Counted from the first letter of the stretch, positions 1-60,105 are shown. The stretch is 60,105 nucleotides of DNA from a virus (IMGVR_UViG_3300034027_000006:1-60105); one strand, 5' to 3'. Notes: generated by a model not told the origin, from the sequence alone. Numbers and translations are program-made.

Positions 1-127
1 CATAGCAACCGCACCCTAAGCACTGGCTAAACGCATCCCAAACGCATCCTAAACGCATACTAAACGCCAGCCAATCTCACCACATCCTCACCCCGCCCCA
101 CACTTCCCTCTACATAATAAAAAACCC
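1..127. repeat. Left inverted terminal repeat (127 bp)
   Basis: The first 127 bases are a perfect reverse complement of the last 127 bases (59979-60105); base 128 and its partner 59978 no longer match. The repeat contains 11-bp tandem units and ends inward in an A6/CCC tract. Just inside it lies a 7-bp stem (CTAGATC, 127-133; GATCTAG, 141-147). With the protelomerase-like gene at 48957 it is a natural candidate telomere. Because 127 is also a common maximum assembly k-mer, the outer limit of the repeat is uncertain. Confidence 0.95.
28..71. repeat. 11-bp tandem repeats inside the terminal repeat
   Basis: Four consecutive 11-mers start at 28, 39, 50 and 61: TAAACGCATCC, CAAACGCATCC, TAAACGCATAC, TAAACGCCAGC. 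The same array is present inverted at 60035-60078. A period of 11 places the units on one face of the helix, as expected for cooperative binding by a replication protein or telomere resolvase. The binding role is inference. Confidence 0.85.
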
Positions 128-3310: not shown

Positions 3311-4774
3311 TTATGTACTCCCCATTGGTAAACGTTTAGGTATATATTCGCTCGCCATCACAGCTAGAGCTAAAGCAAACGCGCAATCGTCGCGCTTACC
3401 TTTTTCGAGCGCTCCTAGCTTTTTATCTTGCCGCCTAAAATCTCGGAGTTGTTTAGCTAATGGTGGATCTCGCAATTGGTCAATGTATGGCGGTATTTTT
3501 ATTTTTCTCTCTTCCAGCAGCAATCCTAAGCTCATTATTGCATTAGGGATATCTGATTCGGTTATGTCTATTACCCGGCTGGATTTGTTCGCTTCCCTTA
3601 ATCTACTGGCTATTTCCTCGCCGCCGTCAGCACGTTTTAAAACTATTGCTGCGGGGTAATAACCTCGCGTAGCCGCGTTAACTAGAGCGATCGCTGTATT
3701 CGCGGATCTACTACGCTCGCTGACACACTTAACCACAATACCATCAACTAAGCATACTGCGGCTGTATGTGTCCCGTTGAAATATAAACCGATAGAGCAA
3801 CTTTTGACCGAGGGATCAGGCCTTCTATCTCTGATTTCAGCATCGGCAATCGATTCGGCGCTGAAGACTTCGATCGCTGCGTCCGAGAATTCGAGATTAA
3901 ATTCTCGTTTTGCGTCCACTAGATCCATGTTTAATTTTTTTGCCATATCCTCCACAAAATTGTCGTTTTGAGAGTATTTAGGGTGACACTTCCAATGTAT
4001 AAAAACTTTGGCATTGCCGTTCCCGTCTTTAAACCAGTAAAATCCGGGCAAATTGTCAGAGTATAACTCACCTTTTGCAACTTGCGAGCAGATATCCTCA
4101 ATATCCCGATCGCCGTTGTTTTCGGTTAGTTTATCCCAGTACCAGCCCGACTTAGCTGACGGGGTAGATACTATAATCACCTTTGCATCGTCACCCGTTA
4201 GAATTGTCGATCCTACCGATGCCGAGTAAATGCTTGCAATATTAGCTTGAAACGCCGCCTCGTCAAAAAACAAGTACATTAGAGAATCTGCGGATCTGTT
4301 TCCTTCTTTGCTGCTGTTGTGAGTCCTGATCTCGGCTCCATTTATTAGCCTGATTAACTTGCTTTCTTCCTTCTCTCTATCTAGTCTCGCTTGCTCTGCT
4401 AGCCATCGAATACGGCTATTTATGGCTGTTGCGTCATCCTCGTTACGCATAAAACAGCTAGCTGCGAAAGCGGGGTTTTTAGCTGCCTCGTGCAACAGTA
4501 ACGCGATGACCGATTGAGTAGTGCCTAATTGCCTTGTTTTTACTACTATGGTCGCAGGGTGTGCGGCAATTATTCGGGCAAGTAAGACTTGATATATATA
4601 AAGGTTGAAAGGCAGCATTTTGCCGCCCGACCGCATTACAATACTAGAGCAAAAATCATCGAGTTTGTCCGGGACTATTAGTAGTTTAGTCTCGTTTTTT
4701 CGAGTAGAAAGTTGCTCTAGTTTTAATTGTACTTTTGCTAGTCGGTCGCTAAATGCTCTTAAGCTTGTCGGCAT
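3311..4774 (-). CDS. terL: Terminase large subunit
   Basis: 487 residues, normal length for the DNA-packaging motor. The ATPase half has a Walker A-like K-T-R-Q-L-G-T-T-Q-S (79-88), Walker B L-M-Y-L-F-F-D-E-A (165-173) and S-T-P-S coupling motif near 203. In the C-terminal nuclease half a D-D-C-A-F-A-L-A motif near 461 matches the last carboxylates of the RNase H-fold nuclease, but where the first catalytic Asp is expected the sequence reads C-S-I-G-L-Y-F-N-G, without an Asp. The start overlaps the end of the preceding gene (4759-5064) by 16 bases, a usual small-large terminase arrangement. It would cut and translocate DNA into the prohead through the portal. Confidence 0.85.
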   Translation of the reverse strand: MPTSLRAFSDRLAKVQLKLEQLSTRKNETKLLIVPDKLDDFCSSIVMRSGGKMLPFNLYIYQVLLARIIAAHPATIVVKTRQLGTTQSVIALLLHEAAKNPAFAASCFMRNEDDATAINSRIRWLAEQARLDREKEESKLIRLINGAEIRTHNSSKEGNRSADSLMYLFFDEAAFQANIASIYSASVGSTILTGDDAKVIIVSTPSAKSGWYWDKLTENNGDRDIEDICSQVAKGELYSDNLPGFYWFKDGNGNAKVFIHWKCHPKYSQNDNFVEDMAKKLNMDLVDAKREFNLEFSDAAIEVFSAESIADAEIRDRRPDPSVKSCSIGLYFNGTHTAAVCLVDGIVVKCVSERSRSANTAIALVNAATRGYYPAAIVLKRADGGEEIASRLREANKSSRVIDITESDIPNAIMSLGLLLEERKIKIPPYIDQLRDPPLAKQLRDFRRQDKKLGALEKGKRDDCAFALALAVMASEYIPKRLPMGST

Positions 4775-5076: not shown

Positions 5077-8000
5077 TTAAATCGTCTCGACAATTATTTC
5101 TACTTGCGATAATTTTAACAGTATTTGCCCGACTGTGTGCTTAACCCAGACTAGCCAATCCTCAGTATTTACAAGTCTTCTAGGTTTGCTCAGGAGTTTG
5201 ACGCGATCGCCAATCTTGATCTCTGGATTGCCTACCTCTGATTTTATGGCAAACTCAAACTCGCGCCAGTTAATGCCGTCTAGTTCTGGCGGTACGGTTG
5301 CCAAGTCTGAGACTTGGGCGAGACTTGGCTCGGACTTGGCGACCTCGATCGGCGCTTCCTGTGCCTTCGCTTCTACTTGCTGTTTCAACACTTCGGGTAA
5401 TACCCAGTCGGTGTTAAATTGCACGTAGCGACGCTCTACCGCTTCATTTATAGCCATCCTGACGGGGCTATCGAGCCAAGTGTCATCTAAGGCATAAGTG
5501 TTAAGTCGCTCGCCGTCTTTCTGCACTTTTTGGCATGGCCCCAATTTTAGGCCCACAACCTCTAAAACTTTCCGCAGGTATTTAATCGAGTCCGTTTTGC
5601 CCTTGTTTGCTCCTTTGGCTATTACTGGCACTTTAAAGCCAAGTGCTGCAATAATTCGCTCGCGCCTGCCGAGCTTGCATAACTCAACTAATTCGGGGCT
5701 ATCTTTATGCCAGACTTTCTCACGGTCTAAAAAGCGCTCTATTTTTAGGTATTGTAGGGCTTTGATTTTTAGATTAGGTGAGTAAAGGTCAGGCAAGTAT
5801 ATAGCCCGTTGAGTCGCGATTTTTGCCCAGTTGTTTTGTTGTCTTTTGTTGGCAGTATCGGGATTGTGGAACATATAGAAAAACTCAGCGGCTCTTATTG
5901 CCTTCGGATCGTCATATTTCAAAAACTCGATAAAATCAGCACTCCAAAGATCGGTTAACTCTATACCTGGTAGCAAGTTTTTGTAACTGTGTTTGATCAG
6001 CTTAACTCGCTCTGGCCAGGTAACATTCCAGCCGCCTGTTAGTTTCTCTGCTTGTTCGTCGGTGATATCTGCGGCCTCGAATATCTCTTTTGCGGTCGTT
6101 TTTTTGACTTCCTCAGATGCCATTTTTAACGCGGCTTCTACTTTCCCATCTGCATAGATAAACTTTTTCTCTAGCTCGTGGCCAGCGTCTTCTAATGCAA
6201 AAATCAAACACTCTTGTAGATTCTTGCGCTCGAATGCTTCTTTTTGAGCGACAGTGATAGCAAAAAGGTTATCAGGATCGGTTTGAGCTTCTGCTATTAG
6301 GTCTAAAAATTGTTGACCTAGCCAGCCTTTATTTAGTCTGAGGTGCGAGATATCCATCTCGGCTAACTCTACTAACTTAGAGGCTGCTGCGTTAATTGTG
6401 TCGAGGTTTGCGTCGGTATTTCCTCTTAAAAATGACTGCTTAGGTATTGATATATGCCAGATACTTTCAGGGCATCGGTTTCGAGCCATTATCTGCATAG
6501 AGTTATCTGTACCGATTACACCTCTAAATAATCCGTAGCTGTGGGCAAAATAGCCGGGGCGATTGAAGTCTATCCCGCTCTCTGCTGTAGGGCTACACAA
6601 TATATAAAAAGGTTGGTGAGCGTCGATCCATTTATTAGCATCATCAAGGCATTTTCTTGCTTCTGTACCAGGGCTAACCGTTTTAGAGTCAATACGCAAA
6701 CCCTCTAGCCCCGCTTCTATTAGTAGTAACTCGATTTGCTCTAACAGTTTTTGTGAGTCACTAAAGACGATAAATGGTTTTGTCGCGGATAACATCGGGG
6801 CAACAAAAGGTGAGAGGTTTTTGTCGTCAAATTTACCCGATTTTGTGGGAGTGCCAAGCAGTATCTCGACTTTAGCTTTAGGTCGCTGCTTTTTGTTTTC
6901 TAGCTTGACTAGCTTTTTGTTTGGCGCTTTGTCTGCCAACCATTTAGCTACCCAGTCAGCAAAATTACCGTCTAGGAATATACAGCAATAAGACAGATCG
7001 ATCGCCTGCCTAAAAAGTTCTAAAGATTCGATCCTATCCTTGCGGTGTGTAGCACTTGCTGCAATGTGTAAAGCTACTGACATCGCCTCATCAATTATTA
7101 CTACTTTATTCCTAAACCATTCGGGATTAGAAAACTTTTTGATCGAGTTCGTACAAAGCGCGAGGCGACTTTGTGGATCTTTCATCATGATCAAAAGTTC
7201 TTCGCGTAAGTGAGAAAAAGACGGGATTCTAGTAGTGAAGTTGTAGATCAGCGAATTGCGAGCAAACAGTGCGATCGCGCCTTTATCCTCAAACGGCCCA
7301 CCCTTTGCGAACAGTCCCTCTAGTTGGCGAGTTTTCCCAGAACCTAGCCCCGATTTTACGGCTAGCATAATGCCTTCGGATGGAGCATCAAAGCTTACAA
7401 ATTCTGACTCTTGGACTAGATCAGGAGTAAATTCTCGCTTATGTATCCACCAACCCCAATCATTAGGACGCTCTGGCGCTTCTGTTTTTGACTGTTCAAC
7501 TGCCTCTAATGCTTTGCGCTCCTGTCGTGGCAGTGTTGACGATTTACGCTTTGGTGGCTCTATTTCTTTCGGCTTTTTATACTGTTCTACAATTTGCCAG
7601 AATTGGTGTAAATGCAGTATTTTAACACCGTCAAAATTTTCTAGTTCGTCTATATCATCAGCAGTTTTATCGACTTGTCCCCACCAAGCAATTAAAGGTC
7701 GGTATCCCTCACGCTCTAACCAATTTATTTGACGTTCTAGCCTGTCAGTAACATGATGGTTAATCACGTCGCCCGCGTCAATTGTCATTATCAATTCACG
7801 GGTTTGATACTTGTCTGTCAAATGTTCAAGCGTGGCTCGTGTGTTTTTTGGCGAGCTTGCATATAAGCCGCCAGCCGCTCCAATTACCGGGGCCTTCAAT
7901 CTTAGATTAGCGATCGCTGGTTTCATGCCCGCGCTGTCTGTTAGCCAGATCTTATCCTGTGGCCCTTCTATCGCCTCGTCGCAACAGGTGATCGGGTTTT

Positions 8001-8685
8001 CCCCGTTGAGATAGGCTGAATTGTCGCGAGATAACCATCTATGGCGGCCCTGACCTTCTGTCACTTCACTAAATCGGACTTGAGCGCCCACTATGCGACC
8101 AAGATGATCGCGCACAGGGCAAAATATGCCCGCGCTCTTGACTTCTAGTTGCCCGCTCCCAAATTTGAAACAGTAGCCGGGTAAATTGTCCGGGTAGCGG
8201 TTGCGTAACTTGTGCCACTTGTCAACTGACCGAAAACCGATTTTTTCGATCTCAGCGTCGCTGAGGCCTCGCGCCCGTAAGCTAGCCCGATCGCTCGCCG
8301 ACAGGCTTAACTCTGATAAAAGTTTTTTATAGTGCAGATCTCGCTCGGCCGCTGGCATCTCATTCTTTAATGCCTCAGCTCGCCGTTTTTCGTCTTCGGC
8401 TTTTATCGCCTCGATTTTTTCCCGATGTGCCGCTCGTGCTTCCTCCGACAATTCTTGCTCGCGGTGAGGGTGAAACGTCGCCCAAATTCCGCTACCCATA
8501 GGAGCCGAGCAAAACCAGACTTGACCGTCAAAACCGTGTATTTTGTCAAATTTTGCCGAATCCGCGTAAGTCTTGCATAAATACGTTATCTGATCGAAAG
8601 CGTTTAGTTTCTCTCGACAGCCCCCGCGAGCGTTACCGCAAACGGGGCAAGGATTGGAGACGCCTGTTGGTCTAAAATCTGGCAT
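5077..8685 (-). CDS. CyRepA1-like primase/helicase plasmid replication protein
   Basis: 1202 residues. An N-terminal zinc-finger-like C-P-V-C-G-x(5)-C (13-23) is followed by a Toprim/DUF3854-like region: W-L-T-D-S-A-G-M-K-P-A (about 250) and L-I-M-T-I-D-A-G-D (about 300). Then comes a superfamily-2-like ATPase with G-L-G-S-G-K-T (about 445) and V-V-I-I-D-E-A (about 530). This order is that of the CyRepA1 family of cyanobacterial plasmid replication proteins. It would prime and unwind DNA at the element's origin. The start has an AGGAG sequence 9-10 bases upstream. It faces the portal gene across a 259-bp region with a long inverted repeat. It is the main evidence that the phage can replicate as a plasmid. 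Confidence 0.75.
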   Translation of the reverse strand: MPDFRPTGVSNPCPVCGNARGGCREKLNAFDQITYLCKTYADSAKFDKIHGFDGQVWFCSAPMGSGIWATFHPHREQELSEEARAAHREKIEAIKAEDEKRRAEALKNEMPAAERDLHYKKLLSELSLSASDRASLRARGLSDAEIEKIGFRSVDKWHKLRNRYPDNLPGYCFKFGSGQLEVKSAGIFCPVRDHLGRIVGAQVRFSEVTEGQGRHRWLSRDNSAYLNGENPITCCDEAIEGPQDKIWLTDSAGMKPAIANLRLKAPVIGAAGGLYASSPKNTRATLEHLTDKYQTRELIMTIDAGDVINHHVTDRLERQINWLEREGYRPLIAWWGQVDKTADDIDELENFDGVKILHLHQFWQIVEQYKKPKEIEPPKRKSSTLPRQERKALEAVEQSKTEAPERPNDWGWWIHKREFTPDLVQESEFVSFDAPSEGIMLAVKSGLGSGKTRQLEGLFAKGGPFEDKGAIALFARNSLIYNFTTRIPSFSHLREELLIMMKDPQSRLALCTNSIKKFSNPEWFRNKVVIIDEAMSVALHIAASATHRKDRIESLELFRQAIDLSYCCIFLDGNFADWVAKWLADKAPNKKLVKLENKKQRPKAKVEILLGTPTKSGKFDDKNLSPFVAPMLSATKPFIVFSDSQKLLEQIELLLIEAGLEGLRIDSKTVSPGTEARKCLDDANKWIDAHQPFYILCSPTAESGIDFNRPGYFAHSYGLFRGVIGTDNSMQIMARNRCPESIWHISIPKQSFLRGNTDANLDTINAAASKLVELAEMDISHLRLNKGWLGQQFLDLIAEAQTDPDNLFAITVAQKEAFERKNLQECLIFALEDAGHELEKKFIYADGKVEAALKMASEEVKKTTAKEIFEAADITDEQAEKLTGGWNVTWPERVKLIKHSYKNLLPGIELTDLWSADFIEFLKYDDPKAIRAAEFFYMFHNPDTANKRQQNNWAKIATQRAIYLPDLYSPNLKIKALQYLKIERFLDREKVWHKDSPELVELCKLGRRERIIAALGFKVPVIAKGANKGKTDSIKYLRKVLEVVGLKLGPCQKVQKDGERLNTYALDDTWLDSPVRMAINEAVERRYVQFNTDWVLPEVLKQQVEAKAQEAPIEVAKSEPSLAQVSDLATVPPELDGINWREFEFAIKSEVGNPEIKIGDRVKLLSKPRRLVNTEDWLVWVKHTVGQILLKLSQVEIIVETI

Positions 8686-8944: not shown

Positions 8945-10336
8945 ATGCAAAACGACCCGTCAAAATATCCTGATTTTTCCTCTACCGAAAGCGGGTGGCA
9001 ATGGTACACAGGCGAGGTTTTTCTCCCTCACTGGCTAGAATCGATACTAGACCTGAGTATCCCAGACAATCAGCGAACCTCACGGGCTATAGCTGCAAAT
9101 TTTCAATCTTGCAACCGTATCGCTGAAGTTATAGATCGTCATATAGCTGCGTTGTCACCCTCTAGCCTCAGCTTTGATAACCCTTTGTTACAAAGCTTAA
9201 TAGAAAAGTGGGAAAGAGAAAACTCCGGCATTTTTGGGCATCCACTTGAGGAAGCTGCGTTAAGAGCCAAAATTGACGGGCGAGCATATCTGCGACTATT
9301 TTTTAAGCAGTCTTATGCAGGGCAAGAGCCGCTTGATTTCCTAGAGGTTCATTGTCCGCCCGCTGAGAGCGTGAAACCCTATCGCAATAATGATCGCTTT
9401 CTAACTGGTTTTGAATATAACTATGTTGAGGATGGCGAACAGTACACCGAAAAACAGTTTTTAAAGGGATCTTTAACTGTTTTTCAAACTATCTATAAAG
9501 GTGAGATAATAGCAGAGAAAACTTTCGAGCGTGATCTTGGTGGGGGTTTTAGCATTGTTGAGATAAATTTAAAACCAATGCTAACCGAATCAATAAAAGA
9601 AAACCAGAACGGCATAAACTTCGCATTAACCTTATTACCGACAAACCTTGCTCGCAATGGCTGGCTGCAAAAAACAGTCTTAAACGGTCAACCGCCCGGA
9701 AAATGGGATTTTGACGACAAAGGCCGAGAGGTCTTTACCCCAAGCAAAGACGGATTACCAGCAGGCCCCGGTATAACTCAATTTATACAAGGCTTGCCAA
9801 TAACTGATGAGCGCGGCGTTATGACAGGTTACACCGTACCCGATATGAGGTCAGAGCAACCCATTAGCCCCGAAACTTTCACTGCAACAGTTAGAGCATT
9901 TTCTCAGTTGATCTATGAGCAAGTCGATCAGAGTTACATTCTAGCCAGCGATCTAGTTTTAAGCGGGGTTAGTCGCGAACAATCAAGACGAGATTTTGCA
10001 GATATAGTTAATGCTGACGCTGTTAAGCTGGGTTATGTCTACAGTGATTTATTAACTGTTTGTAATTACTTTCTGGGAGTTAAGCAACCAATAAAAGCAC
10101 AGTTAAAACCTAGGATAGATAGAGGCATAGAGCATAAGAAATTAGTGCTAGAAGCTCGATCGCAAGGGCTAATAACTAAACGCACAGCAATCGAGGCGTT
10201 AGGGTTTGAGATTGACATAGATGCAGAGCTTGCAGAGCTAGAAAAAGAGGCACAGAAAGCAGCAGAATTAGAAAAACCGCCAGAGACAGTCAAGCCGTCC
10301 GGCGGTGCTATTAAAGACGAAAAAACAGCCGATTAA
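8945..10336 (+). CDS. Portal protein
   Basis: 463 residues. The N-terminal half has the typical portal pattern: a helical start with repeated residues around N-F-Q-S-C-N-R-I-A-E-V-I-D-R, a clip/stem region with D-G-R-A-Y-L-R-L-F-F, and E-V-H-C-P-P-A-E-S-V-K-P. The C-terminus ends in a long helical, Glu/Ala-rich tail with R-x-A-I-E-A-L-G-F. This fits SPP1 gp6-like portals, the dodecameric ring through which DNA enters. It is alone on the plus strand, between the replication gene and minus-strand genes, an unusual placement because terL lies 4 kb away in the opposite direction. Confidence 0.75.
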   Translation: MQNDPSKYPDFSSTESGWQWYTGEVFLPHWLESILDLSIPDNQRTSRAIAANFQSCNRIAEVIDRHIAALSPSSLSFDNPLLQSLIEKWERENSGIFGHPLEEAALRAKIDGRAYLRLFFKQSYAGQEPLDFLEVHCPPAESVKPYRNNDRFLTGFEYNYVEDGEQYTEKQFLKGSLTVFQTIYKGEIIAEKTFERDLGGGFSIVEINLKPMLTESIKENQNGINFALTLLPTNLARNGWLQKTVLNGQPPGKWDFDDKGREVFTPSKDGLPAGPGITQFIQGLPITDERGVMTGYTVPDMRSEQPISPETFTATVRAFSQLIYEQVDQSYILASDLVLSGVSREQSRRDFADIVNADAVKLGYVYSDLLTVCNYFLGVKQPIKAQLKPRIDRGIEHKKLVLEARSQGLITKRTAIEALGFEIDIDAELAELEKEAQKAAELEKPPETVKPSGGAIKDEKTAD

Positions 10337-16605: not shown

Positions 16606-19600
16606 TTAATATCTACCTCGACTAAAACGATCTTGAGTGCGCTCTAGCCAGTCCATGAACGAGCGATCGTGTTTCTCTAGTTCGGCTATTAAATTTTCTG
16701 GTTGCCCGCTTACATTGTAAGTCGGGGAATAAACGGCGCTGTTACTGCCTCCTTGACTTCCTTCGCTTGCCTTCATGCTTAGATCTGCGAGTTTACTTGG
16801 TGGGTTTAGCACTTCCTCAAACTTGCTTTGTATGGCGCTGCCATCTATGCCCTTTATAAACTCTTGCGTCAAACCGAACCCAGTTTTATCTAAATCTGAA
16901 AGCGGGCCACGTTCGGCCGGCGATCTAGGTAGATAACTGCTGACAGATTGAGCTAACCCCGCCGCTGCAAGTTCTGCTTGTGGTTTGCTTGCGTCTATAC
17001 CTTTGGCTAAACCTTCCCCAATAGCTCGCCCGCTTGCGTTACTAGACCTAACTAGAGGCACGATGTTATTTTTTGCACTGGTTGCAATATCTGCCGCAGG
17101 TGATGGAGTTTCGGCGGGTAGTGCAACAGATGGCGGCTCGACTGTCAGCGCTCGCCGTTTAAACGGGGTGATTTGGTTTTGGGGAAGCGCGGCAGGTGCT
17201 GGTGTTGGTGTTGCTGTAGGCGCTTGATTTTGACCCGCTAACGCGGCCGCGCCAACTGTGCCGGCCAGACTTGTAGCCACAGGCACGGCAAGTTTGCCCG
17301 CAGGTGAGGCGGCTAATTTGGAAGCTTCGCCGATCGCTCCTGATAACGCATTTTTAGCCGTGCCAGCAATCCCCGATATTGACTTTGTAAAGGTCGATCC
17401 TATCCCGACAGTCCCGGTGTTTCCGGGTGCTAGGACGTTACTGATCGCGCCTGTGGCTCCTCTCATTGCCGTGCCTGTAACGTTGGCTGCTTTTTGTACC
17501 TTTGACCAAGCTGTCGCAGTATTTGCGGCGGCTCCATTGGCAACACTACCGACGCGAGCAACACTACCAGAAATAGTGTTAGCAGCCTTACCAAACGAAC
17601 CCATAATGCCGGAACCCGCAGAATTAGCCGCCGCCCCGAGTGATTGAGTACCCTTGATCGCGCTTCCCATCGCTTGACCAATTGCCGCGCCGGAATCCTT
17701 TGCAGTTTGCCCGATCGCGCCAATAGATTTGATAGTGCCGCCGATAGAAGTACCCGCAACCTCGCCGACTCCTTTTGCTACTGAATTGGCGGCTTGAAAA
17801 CCTCGAATACCTGTCCCAATAGCCCCACCAGCCACGCCACCAACACCACGGGCTACCTGGTTGCCTTTGTCTATGACAGTGCCAACCCCGCCCGCAACTT
17901 TCCCAACCCCGCCCGCAACTTGTCCAACAGCACCCGCGACGCTTTTAGTAGCATTTAGTAGCCCACCAACAGCCCCGCCTAACCCCCCGGCTACTTTCGA
18001 CACTGCAAATGCTACACCGCCTAAACCAATCGCGCCAGCCCCCAACATCGCCGCATTTTTCAAAAGGCCACCTAACCCGCCGCCCGACTTTTGCGCGGCT
18101 GGTTGTGCTGGTGCTGAATCTTCTACCGGGGTAAAGTTTCGATCCGCCTCTGCCTTTGCTGCCGCTGCTGCTTGTAAGTCTTTCTCACGTTGTGCCGCTT
18201 CTGCTGCTGCTGCTTGTTCAGCAGCGGCGGCGGCTGCTGCTCGGCGATCGTTATCAGATTTTAATTGAGTCGCGGCAATAGCCTGAGACTCTGCGACGCC
18301 TGTTACTGCTGTTTGTGTCTTTGTTGCTGCGGCGATCGCTGCGGTAGTTGCGGCCGCAGCGACCTGTTGCGCTGTCACCTGTCGAGTTTTTTCTACTTCT
18401 ATCGCCGCGCTCGCCTGCTGTGCTGCAATCTGAGCTTGTGCCGCTTGTGCCGCTAGTTGATTGCTCGCTTGCTGTGCCGCTAGTTTCCCCGCCGCGATCT
18501 TGTCTGCTGTTGCGATTTCTGCTGCTTGGTTTGCCTGTGTAACAGCGGCAAGGGCTTCGGCTCCGGCTAGCCTTGTCTGATTGAGTTTATCGGCGTTAGC
18601 TTGCTGCGTAGCGGCAATTTGTTGCTCGTTTTGTTGTTGAATGGCTCCGAGTTCTGTAGCTTCCTCCTGTGGGGTTTTTTGAGAGGTTAGAATATCTTTT
18701 GCTGCTAAGCCAGCGCCGATCGCCGTAGCCGCGCTGATTACTTTTTCGCCCAGTCCTGCGTTACTATCAGTTAGTTTTTGAATAGCAAAAACTGTCGCAC
18801 CTAAAGCAGCTATTAGCATCGCAATCTGTGGAATACTTAACCCTTTTTGCTCTGGTTTTTTCTCATCTTCGCCTGTGGTGACTGGTGCAACGGCTGGCAC
18901 TTCTAAGGGTGCAATAGTTGTCGCGGTTTCCTTTGGTTTTGCTATTTCTTTAGGTAACGCTCGATCCGCTTGTGTCGCGGGATTTTTGTCGTTTTCTTTT
19001 TCTTTAGTTGGTAGCTTGCCGCCTTCGCAGATTTCAGGGCAAATGCAGACGGGGATACAATAATCGATTTTTGCTGCGAGTGCTTTTAACTTGTCCTCGA
19101 AACCGTCGCAGATTATCGGCTCTATACAGATCGGTAAAGTCTCTTTGACTTTTGGCAATTTTCCGACTTCTGGTGCTTTTACGTCTTCGGCTGCTTTACC
19201 CATCCCTAGCAGTCGTTGATTGCCTAAAGCGAGCCAATTTAAAAATCTAGAGATAGGATTGCCCACACCTAAAAATTGATTGCTCAATCGCGAGATTATA
19301 GGTATCCCAGCGCTAAAGATTCCCCACGCTTTCGCTAGTGTTGCCAAACCGAAGAGTAAAGGCCCGATAGAAATAGCCAGCCCTGCAAGTGCCGATCCAA
19401 GTCTTACTATGTTCGGATGTTTTGCGGCGAATTCTGTCATTTTGTTAATAATAGGAGTCAAGAAAGCAGCAAAGGCTTTAACCGCTGGCAGTAACGCCAT
19501 CCCAATCTCGATCGCTAACTCCTGAAAGGAGTTATTTAACATTTGCATTTTTGACGCTGTAGTGTCTAATTGCGTCGCAAAAACCTCGTTATATCTGTTT

Positions 19601-20574
19601 ACATTTGACTGATCATCTGCTATCCCTCCAAGAGCGGTTTTAAAAACATCCATTCTGTCAATGAACACGCCGACATTATCGCTATGTTCAGCCCCGAACA
19701 TTAAGCCGATCGCCTTAGCTCTTTCTTGCGGATCTAGCTTGTCTAACGCATCGCCGAGGGTGAATATGGCTTGTGTACCATTCTCGGCTGTCAGGTTTTG
19801 TAGCTCTTTGCCTGACATTCCGATCATGCCTAGACCTTTTTGAAATCTAGCGCTTTGTATTTCTGCGGTAGTCATTCTAGACAAGAGTGCATTTATTGCG
19901 GTTGCGGCAACTTGTGGAGCCATGCCCAAACTGACAAAGGAAGCACCGAGCGCCGCGCTATCCTTAGCTGTTAGATTAGCCTGTTTTGATAGTGCCGCCG
20001 TCCTCATAATTACGTTTAAAATTTCTTTCTCAGACGCTACCGAAGTGTCGCCGAGTACGTTAATAGCTGCGGCTAATTTTGGGATCTCAGCATTGCTCAT
20101 GCCGTAAATATTTGTAAGCCTGCCGAAAGCTAAACCTGCCGCGTCTGTATCAACAGCGAGAGCGACACTTGCTTTAGATATATCCTTAATGTATTGCGGG
20201 ATCTCTGCCATAGCTACACCGCTCTGACCTGCCGCAACACCGATCTCGGTAAGCTGTTCTGTAGTTAAGGGGATTGTGCGAGATAACTTTTTAATCTCGC
20301 CGCCTAATTCTGCGGTTTTTTCGGCACTTAATCCCGTCGTTTTTCTAACTTCGGCCATTCCCGACTCGAACGAGATCGCAGCGCCCTTGCTGGTTTCTAA
20401 ACCCTTAGCTAATGGTTTTGTAAACTCGCTCGCAGCTTCACCAAGATCGCTTAATGTGTTCGCTGTGTTATTAAGTTTTGCCGCCATTGACTCGCTATTG
20501 TCTAACACGCCTCTAAACGTGTCTGACGCTTCATCTATGGCAGTTATAAGAATAGTTACGTTAGAGTCCGCCAT
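16606..20574 (-). CDS. Tail tape measure protein
   Basis: 1322 residues. The N-terminal third is the standard tape measure domain (A-I-D-E-A-S-D-T-F-R-G-V ... A-I-S-F-E-S-G-M-A-E-V-R-K-T-T-G ... G-V-A-A-G-Q-S-G-V), followed by a hydrophobic region (about 355-420), a cysteine-rich patch (about 480-518), a second hydrophobic span, an Ala/Gln coiled coil, and a Gly/Ala-rich low-complexity segment of about 300 residues. It sets tail length; at about 1.5 angstrom per residue a tail near 200 nm is expected. It follows the frameshifting chaperone genes, as in most tailed phages. Confidence 0.9.
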   Translation of the reverse strand: MADSNVTILITAIDEASDTFRGVLDNSESMAAKLNNTANTLSDLGEAASEFTKPLAKGLETSKGAAISFESGMAEVRKTTGLSAEKTAELGGEIKKLSRTIPLTTEQLTEIGVAAGQSGVAMAEIPQYIKDISKASVALAVDTDAAGLAFGRLTNIYGMSNAEIPKLAAAINVLGDTSVASEKEILNVIMRTAALSKQANLTAKDSAALGASFVSLGMAPQVAATAINALLSRMTTAEIQSARFQKGLGMIGMSGKELQNLTAENGTQAIFTLGDALDKLDPQERAKAIGLMFGAEHSDNVGVFIDRMDVFKTALGGIADDQSNVNRYNEVFATQLDTTASKMQMLNNSFQELAIEIGMALLPAVKAFAAFLTPIINKMTEFAAKHPNIVRLGSALAGLAISIGPLLFGLATLAKAWGIFSAGIPIISRLSNQFLGVGNPISRFLNWLALGNQRLLGMGKAAEDVKAPEVGKLPKVKETLPICIEPIICDGFEDKLKALAAKIDYCIPVCICPEICEGGKLPTKEKENDKNPATQADRALPKEIAKPKETATTIAPLEVPAVAPVTTGEDEKKPEQKGLSIPQIAMLIAALGATVFAIQKLTDSNAGLGEKVISAATAIGAGLAAKDILTSQKTPQEEATELGAIQQQNEQQIAATQQANADKLNQTRLAGAEALAAVTQANQAAEIATADKIAAGKLAAQQASNQLAAQAAQAQIAAQQASAAIEVEKTRQVTAQQVAAAATTAAIAAATKTQTAVTGVAESQAIAATQLKSDNDRRAAAAAAAEQAAAAEAAQREKDLQAAAAAKAEADRNFTPVEDSAPAQPAAQKSGGGLGGLLKNAAMLGAGAIGLGGVAFAVSKVAGGLGGAVGGLLNATKSVAGAVGQVAGGVGKVAGGVGTVIDKGNQVARGVGGVAGGAIGTGIRGFQAANSVAKGVGEVAGTSIGGTIKSIGAIGQTAKDSGAAIGQAMGSAIKGTQSLGAAANSAGSGIMGSFGKAANTISGSVARVGSVANGAAANTATAWSKVQKAANVTGTAMRGATGAISNVLAPGNTGTVGIGSTFTKSISGIAGTAKNALSGAIGEASKLAASPAGKLAVPVATSLAGTVGAAALAGQNQAPTATPTPAPAALPQNQITPFKRRALTVEPPSVALPAETPSPAADIATSAKNNIVPLVRSSNASGRAIGEGLAKGIDASKPQAELAAAGLAQSVSSYLPRSPAERGPLSDLDKTGFGLTQEFIKGIDGSAIQSKFEEVLNPPSKLADLSMKASEGSQGGSNSAVYSPTYNVSGQPENLIAELEKHDRSFMDWLERTQDRFSRGRY

Positions 20575-21990: not shown

Positions 21991-23370
21991 TTAAAGTGCA
22001 AATACTAAATCGACCGAGATAACGTCTAAAACGTCGGGGATTTTGACCTCTAACCGAAAAGCGAGTTTTCTGTTAGGCAAGTCAGAAGCGAGCGGCATAT
22101 ATTCAATTTTGCCGCTGTCTACGCCTTCATTCTCTCCAATTATTCGAGAGATAGAAGCCTCGATCACTGCCACAGCAGAACCCCAAGCCATGCCTAAACG
22201 CATCCCGACATAGCTTGCTAACTCTAGATCGACTTGATCTTTGATTGCGTCTACGATCCGCAAAAAATGAATCCTATCGAGTCCTTTTTCGGCTGGATTC
22301 TCGATAGGATAGGCGGCATTAAAATGCCCCCAAAATACAGGAGTTCGGCCGTTTCTGTTTCTGTAACTAACAATGCCATTATCGGCAAGTTTCTGATTGT
22401 CGGCTAGAGGGTCACTAGCCGAAGTTAATAGCGAGGTTTTCCAGCCTGTAACGCCTTTTATTTCTAGGTTTGTTAAAGATCTCCAGTTTGGGTTAGTAGC
22501 CATCGCCTCGGCTACGTGAATAGAAAACCATTCCTCTTTGGCTTCCGATCCTATCCCGGTAATCGGGTTAGGATAACATAATATTGCTCGCTTGTCTCGT
22601 GTGGCAAAATGTGCCACGGGCGCAGCTCCTGCCGTGCGTCCTGCTTGAACTTCGGCGATCGTAGCCGTCGCTGGTGCATCTAGAACATATTCTGCCCGCA
22701 AGCGATCGCTAAGTGTGGAAAGTTTCGCGATCACTGTTGGCAGCGTACTAAAACCAGGGGCGATAATTATGCCAATGTTGCTCGGCGATAAATCAACAAA
22801 TTCAGCATCGATTAGGGCTTCTAGCCCTTCGCGTTTGCCTGTCCCCGCGTTTACCCCGCCGACGATTTGTGTCGCTGTTACCGCAGCAAAATCAGGGCGA
22901 CTATAACCAGCGAGGACAGTTGCCCCAGCCGGAATCGCTGACCCTTTACGCTGTATAATTCCGCGAACTAAATCGACAGTGTAGTCAGTGTCTAACACAT
23001 AAACAGGCGTACCGCCGACCGCTGTTACCACTGGTGTAGCGATGTGCCTGTGTGGTAGTTGGATCTTGTCTTGATTGTTAAAGGTGTAAGAGGTCGGAGC
23101 GACCGCCACCACTGCCGGGGCCGCGACGTTTACAACTACAAATCTGATTTGCCCATAACTAGAATAGGCACGAGCTAAAGCGTTCGGGATAGTTGCCCCA
23201 GCAGTATTGTAGCCAAAACGAGCGATCGCCTCGGCCATTGACGTTATCAAAAAAGGCACGTTAGGCGTACCGATCGCAGCAGTGCCGACTATCCCTATCA
23301 CGGTGCTGCTTTCGCCCGTGGCTAGTACCTGAGAACCTTCTGTGAACTGTAAGCCGATAGTTACTGGCAT
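21991..23370 (-). CDS. Contractile tail sheath protein
   Basis: 459 residues. The N-terminal V-I-G-I-V-G-T-A-A-I-G-T-P-N-V-P-F-L-I-T-S and C-terminal domain with P-x-x-E-N-P-A-E-K-G-L-D-R-I-H-F-L-R-I-V-D-A-I-K-D-Q are hallmarks of tail sheath (P2 FI-like). Its presence makes this a myovirus-morphotype phage. It is followed by the tube gene, as expected. Confidence 0.85.
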   Translation of the reverse strand: MPVTIGLQFTEGSQVLATGESSTVIGIVGTAAIGTPNVPFLITSMAEAIARFGYNTAGATIPNALARAYSSYGQIRFVVVNVAAPAVVAVAPTSYTFNNQDKIQLPHRHIATPVVTAVGGTPVYVLDTDYTVDLVRGIIQRKGSAIPAGATVLAGYSRPDFAAVTATQIVGGVNAGTGKREGLEALIDAEFVDLSPSNIGIIIAPGFSTLPTVIAKLSTLSDRLRAEYVLDAPATATIAEVQAGRTAGAAPVAHFATRDKRAILCYPNPITGIGSEAKEEWFSIHVAEAMATNPNWRSLTNLEIKGVTGWKTSLLTSASDPLADNQKLADNGIVSYRNRNGRTPVFWGHFNAAYPIENPAEKGLDRIHFLRIVDAIKDQVDLELASYVGMRLGMAWGSAVAVIEASISRIIGENEGVDSGKIEYMPLASDLPNRKLAFRLEVKIPDVLDVISVDLVFAL

Positions 23371-25679: not shown

Positions 25680-26861
25680 TTACGCTGTCGGCTTAGGCAC
25701 TCTTAAAATGCTGATCGGATTGCCAAACGCAAGCAATCTAGCATCAACAACAGGCAACCCCTTAGCAACAACTTCGGCATATATTGACGGGGGGTATTTT
25801 TCATCATGTAAAATGACTTTTGCTACCTTGCCAAATTCTGTTTGCCCTTCGGGTCTACCTAGTGCATAACGTCCGATGGTGTTAGGTAACGTTAAAATGC
25901 CATTGTCTCGACCAAGATCGATTTGAGCTTCTATCGTTGTCGAAGCTAGTAAAATAACTGGATCGAATGTAGCACGATCGAGATAACCGACAGAGGTTAA
26001 AACTTTAGCGTTAGACGGGTTTCTGTATTTAAAAACGCCGTCGTAAGTTTCCCAAGTTGGTAATTCGTGCGCTCGCAATAATGCGTCAATATCTGCCTGT
26101 GTAGTCGATCTAGTTGCTCCATCGGGCAAAGCGTTTCTACGGACTTTACCATTCCGCATAAATACGCTGCGGATCGTACTGCGGCTAATAATTCGATTGA
26201 GTGTAAACCCATTATCAGCAAGCCGTTGCTTAGCTGCTAACAAGTCCTCTAGGGCATCGGCGGCGGTTACAGGGTCGCGGCTATACCAGCCGGCCGGCGC
26301 TGCGAGTGTACCGCTTGCTGCTACTACTGTGGTATGTCCAGCCGGGAAGGGATAGGCAACATCTTCGGTGTATCCATTAGCCCCGCGACGTTTTACAACA
26401 CCGTCTATAATAGCCTGCCATCTTTGATGTTCGATAACTTTAGCCAAACTCGCAGAGACACCCCGATCAAACCAGGTATTTATGATGCCAGCACTCGATC
26501 CGACTGGATCGGTAGACGGCCGAGCTTTGCTCAAATATTGGATTATCGCCTCGATATCCCGTCCGACTAATTGCGTCGCCGCGTCAATTTTTCCCAACCT
26601 GTAATCAAAGCTAAAGTCGCCGAAAGCTTTGCTAAGTTGAGCAGGCGAATAATCAGCACCAGAATTGCCGATTTCGCCTTCTATAGCCATGCCATCATCA
26701 GACGAACTGTTTTCGGTTTCTTGCACTTCTGGCATGATAGTAGCACCGAGCAATCGGTCATTAACTGTGCCAAATTGTGTCAAGTTGCTATTAGCTAAAC
26801 TCGAAAATTGCCCGGTGTCCCTCATCCATGAGACTAGATCGCCTAGGTTTCTAACGTTCAT
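25680..26861 (-). CDS. Major capsid protein (gpE-type, HK97 fold)
   Basis: 393 residues. The distribution (R-L-G-A-T-I-M-P ... E-G-E-I-G-N-S-G, a central helix with D-A-L-E-D-L-L-A-A-K-Q-R-L-A-D-N-G-F-T-L-N-R-I-I-S-R-S-T, and C-terminal V-V-A-K-G-L-P-V-V-D) is that of major capsid E-like proteins. Its ATG overlaps the stop of the preceding gene (ATGA), implying coupled translation. It would form the icosahedral shell on the scaffold encoded at 28672. Confidence 0.8.
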   Translation of the reverse strand: MNVRNLGDLVSWMRDTGQFSSLANSNLTQFGTVNDRLLGATIMPEVQETENSSSDDGMAIEGEIGNSGADYSPAQLSKAFGDFSFDYRLGKIDAATQLVGRDIEAIIQYLSKARPSTDPVGSSAGIINTWFDRGVSASLAKVIEHQRWQAIIDGVVKRRGANGYTEDVAYPFPAGHTTVVAASGTLAAPAGWYSRDPVTAADALEDLLAAKQRLADNGFTLNRIISRSTIRSVFMRNGKVRRNALPDGATRSTTQADIDALLRAHELPTWETYDGVFKYRNPSNAKVLTSVGYLDRATFDPVILLASTTIEAQIDLGRDNGILTLPNTIGRYALGRPEGQTEFGKVAKVILHDEKYPPSIYAEVVAKGLPVVDARLLAFGNPISILRVPKPTA

Positions 26862-48929: not shown

Positions 48930-48960
48930 ACATCTTATCCTGTATACTAGGATAAGATGT
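48930..48960 (+). promoter_or_regulatory. GGATAAG-box promoter of the protelomerase-like gene
   Basis: ACATCTTATCC (48930-48940) and GGATAAGATGT (48950-48960) form a perfect 11-bp inverted repeat with a 9-nt centre that contains TATACT (48943-48948). Here the -10 lies in the palindrome centre rather than after it, and transcription would begin almost at the first ATG (48957), so binding would block this promoter directly. Confidence 0.75.
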
Positions 48961-51900
48961 TTTTTATGACAGTTCAGATCATGGCAGCTAAATCGACAGA
49001 ACCCAAAAGACCATTGTTTAAGTCAGGCGATATAGTCTACTACCGCAACGGCAACAAATTTGAGCAGGCAACAGTAGATCAAGATCAGCCTTCACGCATG
49101 GCTAAAATTATCTGGATTTACTACAATCGCCCCGGCAATAGAAACCCGCATAAATTCAAGGCTTTTTTACAAGAGGTTTACACGGTCGCCGAGTATGAAG
49201 CCCTAAAAGATCAGCCAGTCGCAGCACTCTACAAAAAAGGCGACGCTCTGATATTGACTGAGGACGGCGAATCGTACCCGGTACGCTGCGAGCGAGATCA
49301 AATTTCAGCCAGTAGCGATCGGCTTTATGTAAGCGGTTATCACCTCGAAAACACTTGGGTAGATATCGCCAAGCTGTCACCAGCAGAGGAAGTCACACCA
49401 GCAGAGGAAGTCACACCAGCAGAGGAAGTCACACCAGCAGAGGAAGTAGCACCAGTCGCACCAGTCGCACCAGTCGCACCAGTCGCACAGACTAAAACAG
49501 TCAAGAAACTTTTTGAAAAAGGAGATCTAGCCTATTTAAAAACGCCTACAGATTACACCCCGGTGACTGTAACTATTAGCCAGCGACATAGCAAATCTAA
49601 AAAAATCGAGGTCTTATCCTTTGGTCGCAAGATCGACGTTCTAGTCAAAGACTTGATAACAGTTGCAAAATATCAAGAAATCACAGGCGATAATAGCCCT
49701 GTGCAATTAGACAAACCGCGCCGCTTATTTCAGGCGGGTGACTGGTGTTACTGGCAAGCTCGCCCCGGCAATGAACCCCACAACAAAAGGATCGTCAAAT
49801 GCGACCACAACCAGCACAAAAACGATCATATTGTCTGGGTTGTGGAACTTAAAGGCAATTGGCGCGATCGTTTTGGAGTCGATAGCAACTTACTCGGATT
49901 GATCACAGATCCGGCAAAGCTAGCCGAGCTAGACGCTAACGAGAAAGCGATCGAGGCAAGGGTAGACGAGATCAAGCGCAAGGAAGCAACAGACACAGAG
50001 GTAGCGCTCGCCGATGTTATTCCGATAGCAGAAACGGTCGCCGATGCTATCCCAGCAACCGAAACAGCGATCGCAGAGGTCGCAGCAGTTGCCGGCCCGC
50101 CTGAGTGCTACCCCGATGGCATCCGACGCGATAGCGCGATCGGGCGGATACGGGCTGAGGATGAGCGAGCCATTGCTGCAATGTTGAAAGCAGGCGATCG
50201 CCGTTGGTGGCGAGCAAGTGTCGGTAATTATCGATATGCTTGCGTAGAAAAAGACCAAAAAAGTCCAACCTCTAAAAAAGTTCAGATCTTGCACTGGCGC
50301 GACGATCGCCCCGGCGTTAGTCCCGAAGGCGTGGGCCCGGTTTGGGTAAACATCTCTGATCTACTGACAGAGGAGCAATATAAAGAACAAAAGCAGAATG
50401 AGGCTAAAAAGCGCGTTGAAGCTTTGTTACCTGCACGGGATGAGGAAACACCAGCCGAAAGCGTGACGGTAGCCTTCACGTCGCCGGAATCGTTCGCTAA
50501 AGTAATGTTGAAGGCTGGCAACAACGCCGGAGAGATTAGCCGACTGTGCGATCGATTGCTAGCCCTGCCAATGTTCGATAGAACTCGGATTAACGAGCGC
50601 ACAAAATTAACTCGCCTCGGCCCTTATAGTCGAGCGCTAGAGGCAGAGATCAAGCAATCAGGGTTTGAGCTTATTCGCCATACAAACGCGGTAGTCTGGC
50701 GAAGAAAAGACGGCAGCGAGCAGTTACGTCACTATTACTACAAGCTCGTCGGGCTGATGGATTATGACTGGGACGCTGACAACCAAAAAGCAGCCGAGAA
50801 AGTAATCGCAAAGCTAGACAATCAAGTCGCAAATATTGACAGCGAGACTTACATTAAGACTGTTGAGACTCTGCTATGGTTTGACGATCCGATAAAAGTT
50901 TTAGGCGGTCTAGTTGGCGCTAGCGGTCGCCGGATTGTGGAACTAATAACGCTCGGAAATTTCACCGAGATCGAGAATCAAACCGATCGAGTAGTGTTTC
51001 ACGGGCAAGCTAAAAAGCGAGATAAACCGAGCGATCCTTACGAGATTTATTTGCTCGGATGCACCGCTAAAGACTTTTTAGCTAAGCTTGATTTTGTGCG
51101 CGACAGTGATGAGATGAAAGCAGCCTATGAGGGTCTAGACCCCGATAGCTCTGATTTCTTAAAGAGACTATCAGATCGGCTGAGGGTGCAAGTCAATCGC
51201 GAGGCGGTCGGCCCTGCGTTTGAATGGCTACAAAGTCGCGAGGGTGAGGAGCGAGCAACAACTAAAACACTAAGATCGACTTGGGCTGCTGTTGTCACTA
51301 GCAAGTATTGCCCGCCAGAAACTAACCCGCTGCTGTTTACTAGCCGACTGCTCGGACACTTTACGGGGTCAGTTGAAAGCATGGCAGACACGCTGAACTA
51401 TATCGACAGCGTGGCCGCCAAGTCCGACGAGCCAAACTTAGAAAAAGTCGAAGAGGTTCAAAGATGGCAGAGCATTGTAGACGGAATAATAGTCAAGCAA
51501 CCTAACGCGACATCAGGAGTCGAAACAGCGACAGCAGAGACAATCCAAGATCCAACAGAAACAGAAGAGGAAGCAACGCCAGCGCTCGATTATGTTCAAT
51601 TTGTAGAAGATGAAGCGGGCGATCGTCACAAGCGCGATTTTTACGAGTCGCCAGTCTGGGCATCTCTTGCGATGCTCGAATATGGCGGAATCACCGGGAC
51701 TGTCGGCGAGTGCTGCAACGGATACGGGGCAATAAGCCGAATATTTCAAAAGGCAAATTATGCAGTCTGGACTAATGATATTGACCCGGAGAAACCCGCA
51801 GATCACCATATAGACGCAACTGTCGAGGAATTGTGGGACAGCTTACCTGATGCTGACTGGATTATCTCAAATCCACCTTACGGGAAGCTATCAGCCCCCA

Positions 51901-52661
51901 TCGTTATCAACGCTTTCAAAAAAGCCAAAAAAGGCATCGCAATGGTTTTAAAGATGAATTGGTGGGAGTTATGCCAAGATCGCAAGCAGTTCTTAAAAGA
52001 ACATCCACCAACAGGCTTTATAAACCTGCCGAGATATTGTTACCGCAAGGCTACCGCGACCGGGAAGTGGGCAACAGATGAAGCGCCGACAGTGATCTAT
52101 ATCTGGGATAAATCAATAACCCACGGGCTAACTCAAACGATACCTTTACCAGCCGACGAGCTTAGACTGTTTTATCGCACACCTGACGAAACACCAGAAC
52201 TCGAAAAAATCGAGACAGAGATAGCCGACATCATGGCTAAAAAGCTAGAGGCGGTCAAATCTGTCGAAGTCAAGCCGACTGTAACGATCGATGTGGCAGA
52301 AAGTAAACCAATCGAAACAATAAAAGCAACTAAAACCGAACCTGTAGAAACTGATCCGGCTTCAGTGCCGAAAGTAAGTCGAAAGGCGAAGGAAGTTAAG
52401 CCTAAAAAACCACGCTTAACGATGGAAGAAAAGCTCGAAAAAGTTAGCGAAAAAATGCGAGCTTTCTTAGAGAAAAATGCAGCGTTAGAGAAACCCGATC
52501 GCTGGTTTGTTAGTCAGAATATTATAGCCCGTGTCGCCGGAGTAGGTCACGATCTGGCTAACGAATGGCTTAACTTGAATAAGCCCTTACTTGACGCACA
52601 CAACCTCGGCTTAAACCGCTCGGAGCAAAACCGGGGGCGAAAATTCGAGAATCTAAATTAG
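48957..52661 (+). CDS. Protelomerase-like recombinase fused to N6-adenine DNA methyltransferase
   Basis: 1234 residues. (1) Five SH3-like repeats with the core L-F/Y/M-K-x-G-D (residues about 20-470), split by a P-A-E-E-V repeat linker. (2) About 500-830: a tyrosine recombinase resembling telomere resolvases: G-A-S-G-R-R-I-V-E-L (R658/R659), V-F-H-G-Q-A-K-K-R (K686/K687), K-T-L-R (R773), L-L-G-H (H801), L-N-Y-I-D (Y815). The G-R-R-x-x-E and G-Q-x-K-K-R boxes are typical of TelN/TelK/ResT. (3) About 895-1060: methyltransferase with G-E-C-C-N-G-Y-G and S-N-P-P-Y-G (972-976). (4) A helical C-terminal domain (about 1150-1234). Known resolvases cut a palindromic junction and reseal hairpins. The start may be 48957, 48966 or 48981. 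The recombinase call is strong; the resolvase subtype is inferred. Confidence 0.7.
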   Translation: MFFMTVQIMAAKSTEPKRPLFKSGDIVYYRNGNKFEQATVDQDQPSRMAKIIWIYYNRPGNRNPHKFKAFLQEVYTVAEYEALKDQPVAALYKKGDALILTEDGESYPVRCERDQISASSDRLYVSGYHLENTWVDIAKLSPAEEVTPAEEVTPAEEVTPAEEVAPVAPVAPVAPVAQTKTVKKLFEKGDLAYLKTPTDYTPVTVTISQRHSKSKKIEVLSFGRKIDVLVKDLITVAKYQEITGDNSPVQLDKPRRLFQAGDWCYWQARPGNEPHNKRIVKCDHNQHKNDHIVWVVELKGNWRDRFGVDSNLLGLITDPAKLAELDANEKAIEARVDEIKRKEATDTEVALADVIPIAETVADAIPATETAIAEVAAVAGPPECYPDGIRRDSAIGRIRAEDERAIAAMLKAGDRRWWRASVGNYRYACVEKDQKSPTSKKVQILHWRDDRPGVSPEGVGPVWVNISDLLTEEQYKEQKQNEAKKRVEALLPARDEETPAESVTVAFTSPESFAKVMLKAGNNAGEISRLCDRLLALPMFDRTRINERTKLTRLGPYSRALEAEIKQSGFELIRHTNAVVWRRKDGSEQLRHYYYKLVGLMDYDWDADNQKAAEKVIAKLDNQVANIDSETYIKTVETLLWFDDPIKVLGGLVGASGRRIVELITLGNFTEIENQTDRVVFHGQAKKRDKPSDPYEIYLLGCTAKDFLAKLDFVRDSDEMKAAYEGLDPDSSDFLKRLSDRLRVQVNREAVGPAFEWLQSREGEERATTKTLRSTWAAVVTSKYCPPETNPLLFTSRLLGHFTGSVESMADTLNYIDSVAAKSDEPNLEKVEEVQRWQSIVDGIIVKQPNATSGVETATAETIQDPTETEEEATPALDYVQFVEDEAGDRHKRDFYESPVWASLAMLEYGGITGTVGECCNGYGAISRIFQKANYAVWTNDIDPEKPADHHIDATVEELWDSLPDADWIISNPPYGKLSAPIVINAFKKAKKGIAMVLKMNWWELCQDRKQFLKEHPPTGFINLPRYCYRKATATGKWATDEAPTVIYIWDKSITHGLTQTIPLPADELRLFYRTPDETPELEKIETEIADIMAKKLEAVKSVEVKPTVTIDVAESKPIETIKATKTEPVETDPASVPKVSRKAKEVKPKKPRLTMEEKLEKVSEKMRAFLEKNAALEKPDRWFVSQNIIARVAGVGHDLANEWLNLNKPLLDAHNLGLNRSEQNRGRKFENLN
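49378..49486 (+). repeat. Coding minisatellite in the protelomerase-like gene
   Basis: About four 18-bp units (ACCAGCAGAGGAAGTCAC) encode repeated T-P-A-E-E-V, followed by four 9-bp units (ACCAGTCGC) encoding repeated A-P-V. This makes a flexible linker between the second and third SH3-like repeats and is prone to length variation. Confidence 0.85.
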
Positions 52662-53703: not shown

Positions 53704-53748
53704 AAGTAAATAGCCGTAGCGTTTGCCAATCGCTACGGCTATTTACTT
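53704..53748. terminator. Long symmetric stem-loop between convergent genes
   Basis: A perfect 18-bp stem: AAGTAAATAGCCGTAGCG (53704-53721), 9-nt loop, and its complement (53731-53748). It separates the genes ending at 53698 (plus) and 53760 (minus). It has no long T-tract but is much more stable than the other terminators. Confidence 0.75.
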
Positions 53749-59959: not shown

Positions 59960-59987
59960 CCCACCGAGTCGTAACGGCGGGTTTTTT
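59960..59987 (+). terminator. Second terminator, straddling the inner edge of the right repeat
   Basis: CCC-A-CCG, loop, CGG-C-GGG, T6. The T-tract (59982-59987) is inside the terminal repeat. It should stop transcription before the genome end. Confidence 0.7.
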
Positions 59988-60105
59988 ATTATGTAGAGGG
60001 AAGTGTGGGGCGGGGTGAGGATGTGGTGAGATTGGCTGGCGTTTAGTATGCGTTTAGGATGCGTTTGGGATGCGTTTAGCCAGTGCTTAGGGTGCGGTTG
60101 CTATG
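59979..60105. repeat. Right inverted terminal repeat (127 bp)
   Basis: Exact reverse complement of 1-127, with the 11-bp array at 60035-60078. Joined tip to tip, the two repeats would give a 254-bp perfect palindrome centred on CTATGCATAG, the kind of head-to-head junction that telomere resolvases process. Confidence 0.95.

Follow-up and report, generated by a model that had tools for sequence, protein, structure and literature searches.

We analysed computationally a 60,105-nucleotide viral sequence (IMGVR_UViG_3300034027_000006, positions 1-60105; the whole stretch is referred to here as the window), in which one uninterrupted open reading frame (ORF) on the plus strand, 48957..52661, encodes a protein of 1234 amino acids (aa) that joins a protelomerase, or telomere resolvase, to a DNA methyltransferase. 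An initial annotation of this DNA had proposed such a frame of 3.7 kb, and the frame as well as every motif listed for it (GRRIVEL, GQAKKR, LRST, LLGH, NYID and SNPPYG) was found in place. From its N-terminus the protein comprises five divergent modules (49005..50456), a protelomerase core at residues 505-850 (50469..51506), within which residues 625-808 (50829-51380) match the Pfam family PF16684, an N6-adenine-type methyltransferase domain at residues 886-1095 (51612..52241), and a C-terminal domain at residues 1156-1232 (52422..52652) of a kind common to the protelomerases of cyanobacterial plasmids. The same architecture is present in a second phage, G003.

The assignment of the core to the telomere resolvases, as first suggested, is supported by the agreement of sequence profile, invariant catalytic residues and predicted fold. 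PF16684, the ResT-TelK catalytic domain, is the sole Pfam family matched by the ORF, at 82.7 bits against a cutoff of 27 (E=3.1e-23). A sequence-only PDB search with the ORF returned the protelomerase TelA as its top match, while a profile of 38 protelomerase cores searched against the PDB retrieved TelK (5.4e-72), TelA (1.3e-23) and ResT (1.5e-14) and no other protein; values such as these exclude a chance match. Three of the catalytic residues originally assigned, R773, H801 and Y815, stood as they were, and two that had been left as pairs (R658/659 and K686/687) were narrowed to R659 and K686 in the TelK register. Through the 38-sequence profile these five residues align with the active site of TelK, which we take to be R275/K300/R383/H416/Y425, so that at the level of alignment the region neither departs from TelK nor resembles an ordinary integrase. 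Invariant across the 38 cores are G657, R658, R659, E662, F681, G683, K686, I697, R773, G800, H801 and Y815.

An AlphaFold2 model of residues 505-850 (predicted local distance difference test, pLDDT, 81.4; predicted template modelling score, pTM, 0.71) points the same way: the first eight Foldseek matches in the PDB are all TelA, TelK or ResT (E-values of 1.2e-10, 1.1e-8 and 2.8e-5, respectively, followed by XerA at 1.2e-3; template modelling score about 0.56), and VHML ORF1 is the top fold match in a viral library. We considered whether the protein might instead be an ordinary tyrosine integrase, the inverted ends of the window (described below) having arisen through some other mechanism such as protein-primed replication. 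The catalytic fold is indeed common to tyrosine recombinases, and XerA and lambda Int occupy Foldseek ranks 9-10, with Cre also appearing only behind the protelomerases; yet the sequence profile matches protelomerases only, these also clearly head the fold search, no protein-primed polymerase was recognised, and the relatives of the enzyme sit on hairpin-ended plasmids. We therefore regard an ordinary integrase as very improbable. Judged by sequence and model together, the ORF carries a genuine telomere-resolvase domain belonging to the cyanobacterial branch of the family.

Comparison with known enzymes places the window protein within this family and also sets it apart. TelK, TelN and VHML ORF1, of the phages phiKO2, N15 and VHML, share with it the catalytic domain, the R-K-R-H-Y residues and the fold, and these phages are maintained as linear plasmids, which is also the state we propose for the window. 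TelK-type enzymes, however, possess TelK_N, muzzle and stirrup domains, for which Pfam gave no match in the window protein (three phage proteins, L015, L016 and L110, do match accessory TelK domains), and if such phages have a methyltransferase, it is encoded by a gene of its own. TelA of Agrobacterium, the best PDB fold match, and ResT of Borrelia have the same active site but are chromosomal enzymes without fused enzymatic domains. In a phylogenetic tree the window protein and that of G003 form a pair, joined next by cyanobacterial plasmid protelomerases (98/96 support) and apart from the TelK-type phage enzymes, a placement that is only indicative given the long branches of the tree. Core homologues are frequent on plasmids of filamentous cyanobacteria. 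These cyanobacterial plasmid enzymes, annotated at NCBI as 'protelomerase family protein' and exemplified by those of pNPM8 and pNPM10 of Nostoc N6 and of Fischerella NIES-4106 plasmids, are about 27-31% identical to the window core and share the catalytic residues and the C-terminal domain of the window protein; unlike that protein, they are about 450-690 aa in length (one is 861) and have no methyltransferase.

The N-terminal modules had been described as SH3-like L-x-x-G-D repeats. Repeat alignments do recover five divergent F/L-x-x-G-D units (residues about 17-87, 84-150, 178-249, 251-337 and 405-500), compared with one in the G003 protein, but a barrel fold is only predicted for them: one module was modelled as a small five-strand barrel (pLDDT 76), whose top PDB folds, PWWP and Tudor (SH3-like), were matched with weak E-values, the best being 5e-3. 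A reading of the fused protein as a defence gene was rejected, PADLOC having given no match.

The fusion to a methyltransferase, likewise proposed at the outset, holds: in the same frame, the domain following the core matches the DNA methyltransferase family phrog_799 (E=9.5e-21). Its motifs, X (DFYESP), I (GECCNGYGAI) and IV (SNPPY), stand in gamma order, NPPY/F is conserved in an alignment of its relatives, and the presence of an S-adenosylmethionine-binding motif, a D/N-PP-Y/F motif and the phrog_799 family places it among the amino-group (N6A/N4C) DNA methyltransferases. Stand-alone methyltransferases on Nostoc plasmids are about 40% identical to the window domain and share its NPPY; at the other loci checked, by contrast, stand-alone and phrog_799-type methyltransferases have no protelomerase in frame or nearby. 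In three cyanobacterial genomes (G009, G178 and G054) stand-alone relatives of the methyltransferase share a contig with stand-alone relatives of the ASCH domain that is found in G003 (see below), at a spacing of 4-5 kb in two and about 70 kb in the third, and in Nostoc C057 (L003) an AlkB-type dioxygenase gene has its start within the methyltransferase gene.

When a hidden Markov model of 53 cyanobacterial protelomerase C-termini was run against 1138 ORFs, residues 1156-1232 of the window protein ranked first at 19.4 bits, a score attained by 0 of 2000 shuffles, and the G003 protein ranked second. Because the domain beyond the methyltransferase thus corresponds to the C-terminal part of cyanobacterial protelomerases that lack the fusion, the methyltransferase looks best described as an insertion into the linker of a cyanobacterial-type protelomerase, between its catalytic and C-terminal domains. 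To our knowledge, none of the few characterised telomere resolvases has a second enzymatic domain. Of the 71 other protelomerase ORFs that were gathered, not one is fused in this way, and no further case was found in viral contigs, in 386 cyanobacterial genomes or at the methyltransferase loci checked; a 946-aa match in genome G031 was rejected, being an ASCH-bearing protein without a resolvase. Nor did titles and abstracts, in an incomplete coverage of the literature, yield a recognisable report of a protelomerase-methyltransferase fusion or of a protelomerase cyanophage.

The second case, G003 (IMGVR_UViG_2830716703_000001, IMG genome 2830716703), is a myophage of 52.5 kb and was among three related phage contigs obtained by a tail-sheath search. 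Its fusion protein of 949 aa consists of one module, the core (PF16684, 67 bits), an additional ASCH domain (PF04266, E=3.6e-6), the methyltransferase and the C-terminal domain, and the two phages are collinear from the terminase through the fused gene. Identity between the window and G003 proteins is 54% in the methyltransferase, 35% in the core and 34% at the C-terminus. Conservation of the fusion at such divergence rules out a chimera or a frameshift, and the fact that a distant relative holds the same join suggests that the sealing and the marking of DNA ends may be linked.

We note that the two ends of the window mirror one another: the left terminal repeat (1..127, plus strand) is the exact reverse complement of the right one (59979..60105, minus strand). 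The left repeat presents a C-rich strand (54 C, 11 G) and contains AAACGCAT three times at a spacing of 11 bp. A 254-bp palindrome, which the initial annotation had put forward as a cleavage substrate, does not occur in the window; what is present is the pair of exact 127-bp inverted repeats. G003 ends in exact inverted repeats of 99 bp, which continue imperfectly for about 80 bp more (to about 180 bp), and its two copies have diverged (100% and 87.5% over a 64-aa stretch). The break in the gene order falls at the same position in both contigs, where the resolvase side would meet the terminase side.

Short-read assemblers commonly work with k-mers of 127 and 99, and the agreement in length might be taken to mean that the terminal repeat, or even the fusion, is an assembly artefact. 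We consider this scarcely credible, since the fusion recurs in the independent genome of G003 and the G003 repeat runs on imperfectly past 99 bp with diverged copies, from which it follows that the G003 repeat is biological and only its outer end has been cut. The inverted repeats are thus real, while the k-mer lengths indicate that the outer ends and the centre of the palindrome are probably missing from the contigs, so that a 254-bp palindrome joined from them would be no safe substrate. An exact search of IMG/VR for an outer continuation of the terminal repeats returned none for the window, and the G003 repeat returned G003 alone. When all of the window was scanned for palindromes that might serve as an internal telomere site, only a hairpin at 53704-53748 with 22-nt arms came up; this was rejected as a candidate and, with its 18-bp perfect stem in a 61-bp gap between convergent genes, it is probably a two-way terminator.

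The cyanobacterial plasmids on which related enzymes are found offer a frame for interpreting these ends. For the Nostoc N6 plasmids pNPM8, pNPM9 and pNPM10, covalently closed hairpins have been reported at the inverted-repeat ends, in which a AAATTAACRGAC is conserved; the plasmids have been proposed to be phage remnants, one of them carrying a terminase (PMC5987646), and we located protelomerase genes on these plasmids. Related plasmid records show inverted repeats of 957 and 1491 bp, or palindromic junctions. Protelomerase plasmids share with the window their inverted-repeat ends (long on the plasmids), and several share a CyRepA1-type replicase and some the same terminase family, but in the annotation of the small ones no phage structural genes are named, unlike in the window. 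The window terminase is about 30-35% identical to the terminases of seven cyanobacterial plasmids of 13-27 kb (AP018305, AP018306, AP018215, AP018286, NC_019679, NC_014535 and NZ_CP026691; L138, L140, L141 and L143-L146), and 7 of 7 plasmids with such a terminase also have a protelomerase-like ORF, while their annotation names no phage structural gene; it is possible that they are phage satellites or decayed telomere phages. The window, for its part, has the appearance of a complete phage belonging to this linear plasmid family.

Among plasmids of this kind a telomere core, TTAATTTAAATTAA, with CCGT/ACGG or CTGT/ACAG flanks, is common to pC052_H of Nostoc C052 (L139, centre at 38102), L138 (junction 22270/1) and L141 (21197). 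In its assembly pC052_H takes the form of a head-to-head palindrome, and some records of such plasmids carry a circular label. A further palindrome, perfect and of 2 x 3079 bp, lies in a 4.68-Mb contig of cyanobacterial genome G039 (L134; C1, about 2,110,110-2,116,270); each arm encodes an identical 876-aa protein with two ResT-TelK catalytic stretches, and the locus resembles what would result if assembly had run through two joined telomeres of a linear chromosome.

The remaining genes of the window are those of a phage and of a plasmid. A terminase large subunit (3311..4774, minus strand; phrog_2, E=4.3e-21) is followed by a CyRepA1-family plasmid replication protein of 1202 aa (5077..8685, minus; NCBIfam NF042913, E=5.7e-85, 286 bits against a cutoff of 200), a portal protein (8945..10336, plus; phrog_64, E=1.3e-4), a tape measure protein (16606..20574, minus; phrog_28, E=8e-56), the contractile tail sheath of a myovirus (21991..23370, minus; phrog_23, E=3.8e-35) and a major head protein (25680..26861, minus; phrog_29, E=1.4e-13), and baseplate and endolysin genes were recognised as well. 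The HIP1 sequence, GCGATCGC, occurs 27 times against 0.6 expected, an enrichment of about 40-fold that points to a cyanobacterial host; HIP1 is enriched in G003 as well, and in the window GATC is twofold over-represented. The window is a cyanobacterial myovirus and, with its plasmid replicase and 127-bp terminal inverted repeats, most likely a telomere phage-plasmid. Two further genes were noted: a SNF2-type helicase (33678-35906) resembling helicases of defence systems, and, adjoining the left end at 276-866, a short protein with a Rieske iron-sulphur-like CPH...CPGH pattern and no clear family match.

Taken together, we consider it probable that this protein is a true member of the cyanobacterial telomere resolvases with an inserted methyltransferase, encoded by a temperate telomere phage-plasmid that resolves its own ends, and that the methyltransferase acts on the phage DNA. 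Under such a scheme CyRepA1 would replicate the phage from an internal origin, the inverted terminal repeats would become the palindromic junctions of a head-to-head dimer, and the resolvase would cut each junction through Y815 and refold the strands so that two hairpins result, each covalently closed. The fused protein would hold the telomere by its resolvase and C-terminal domains and carry the Tudor/PWWP-like modules and the methyltransferase along; the latter would most likely modify adenines of the phage DNA, shielding it from host restriction, and might also mark telomere-proximal DNA. Computation establishes the family, the active site, the fold, the conserved fusion, the phage and plasmid genes and the inverted ends, whereas we infer hairpin ends and a linear prophage by analogy with known relatives (PMC5987646).

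Several observations weigh against this reading. Only two fused cases are known; the repeat lengths are exactly those of typical assembler k-mers; the centre of the palindrome lies outside the contig, leaving no target site identified; the telomere core known from Nostoc plasmids was searched for and found in neither the window nor G003; and the subset of ORFs scanned yielded no recognisable partition gene or repressor, a weak absence as many ORFs have no known function.

As to what the methyltransferase does, two readings lead, a co-expressed anti-restriction enzyme and a telomere-coupled mark; the initial annotation had offered control of hairpin formation, marking of replicated telomeres or protection of the ends as possible roles. 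In the first, two independent enzymes share one chain, the methyltransferase protecting the genome at large and the fusion securing no more than co-expression. In its favour, telomere phages such as Valp1, VHML and VP58.5 have a separate methyltransferase gene (PMC11054321), and both the window and G003 strongly avoid 6-bp palindromes, among them CTGCAG, GGATCC and GCATGC (0 observed, 10-12 expected each), a sign of restriction pressure. This leaves unexplained the site of the insertion, within the resolvase and ahead of its own C-terminal domain, as well as the retention of the arrangement over strong divergence, and we rate this reading a serious contender though somewhat short of an even chance.

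Alternatively, methylation might control the telomere, a mark or hemimethylation on the junctions timing the resolvase cut and the ASCH domain of G003 reading the modified base. The physical fusion in two diverged phages, the joining of the G003 resolvase to both methyltransferase and ASCH domain, and the shared contigs of their stand-alone relatives in three cyanobacterial genomes would fit; the fusion could, however, equally serve dosage or targeting, and the domain is missing from all other protelomerases collected. We hold such control to be rather unlikely. Returning to the reading we favour, in which the methyltransferase acts on phage DNA, its role would most simply be against restriction, with the fusion tethering it at the telomeres. 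Accessory telomere functions are plausible in that TelN of N15 guards hairpin ends against Mre11-Rad50 separately from its catalytic activity (PMC12624138).

While the chemistry involved is known, the domain architecture is new, and an apparently complete telomere phage is here placed in a new host phylum. We speculate, as an improbable idea, that the resolution of hairpin telomeres and methylation are coupled on a single chain (which in G003 includes an ASCH reader-type domain as well), modification of the junction controlling or recording its resolution; if true, this would amount to a bacterial telomere-maintenance complex in one polypeptide. The idea is timely, TelN having already been shown to act beyond end resolution, and the conserved fusion lets the role of DNA modification in hairpin-telomere biology be tested directly. 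Tools for linear vectors in cyanobacteria might also be drawn from the phage. For the small linear cyanobacterial plasmids, which were suspected to be phage remnants, an apparently complete phage is now available.

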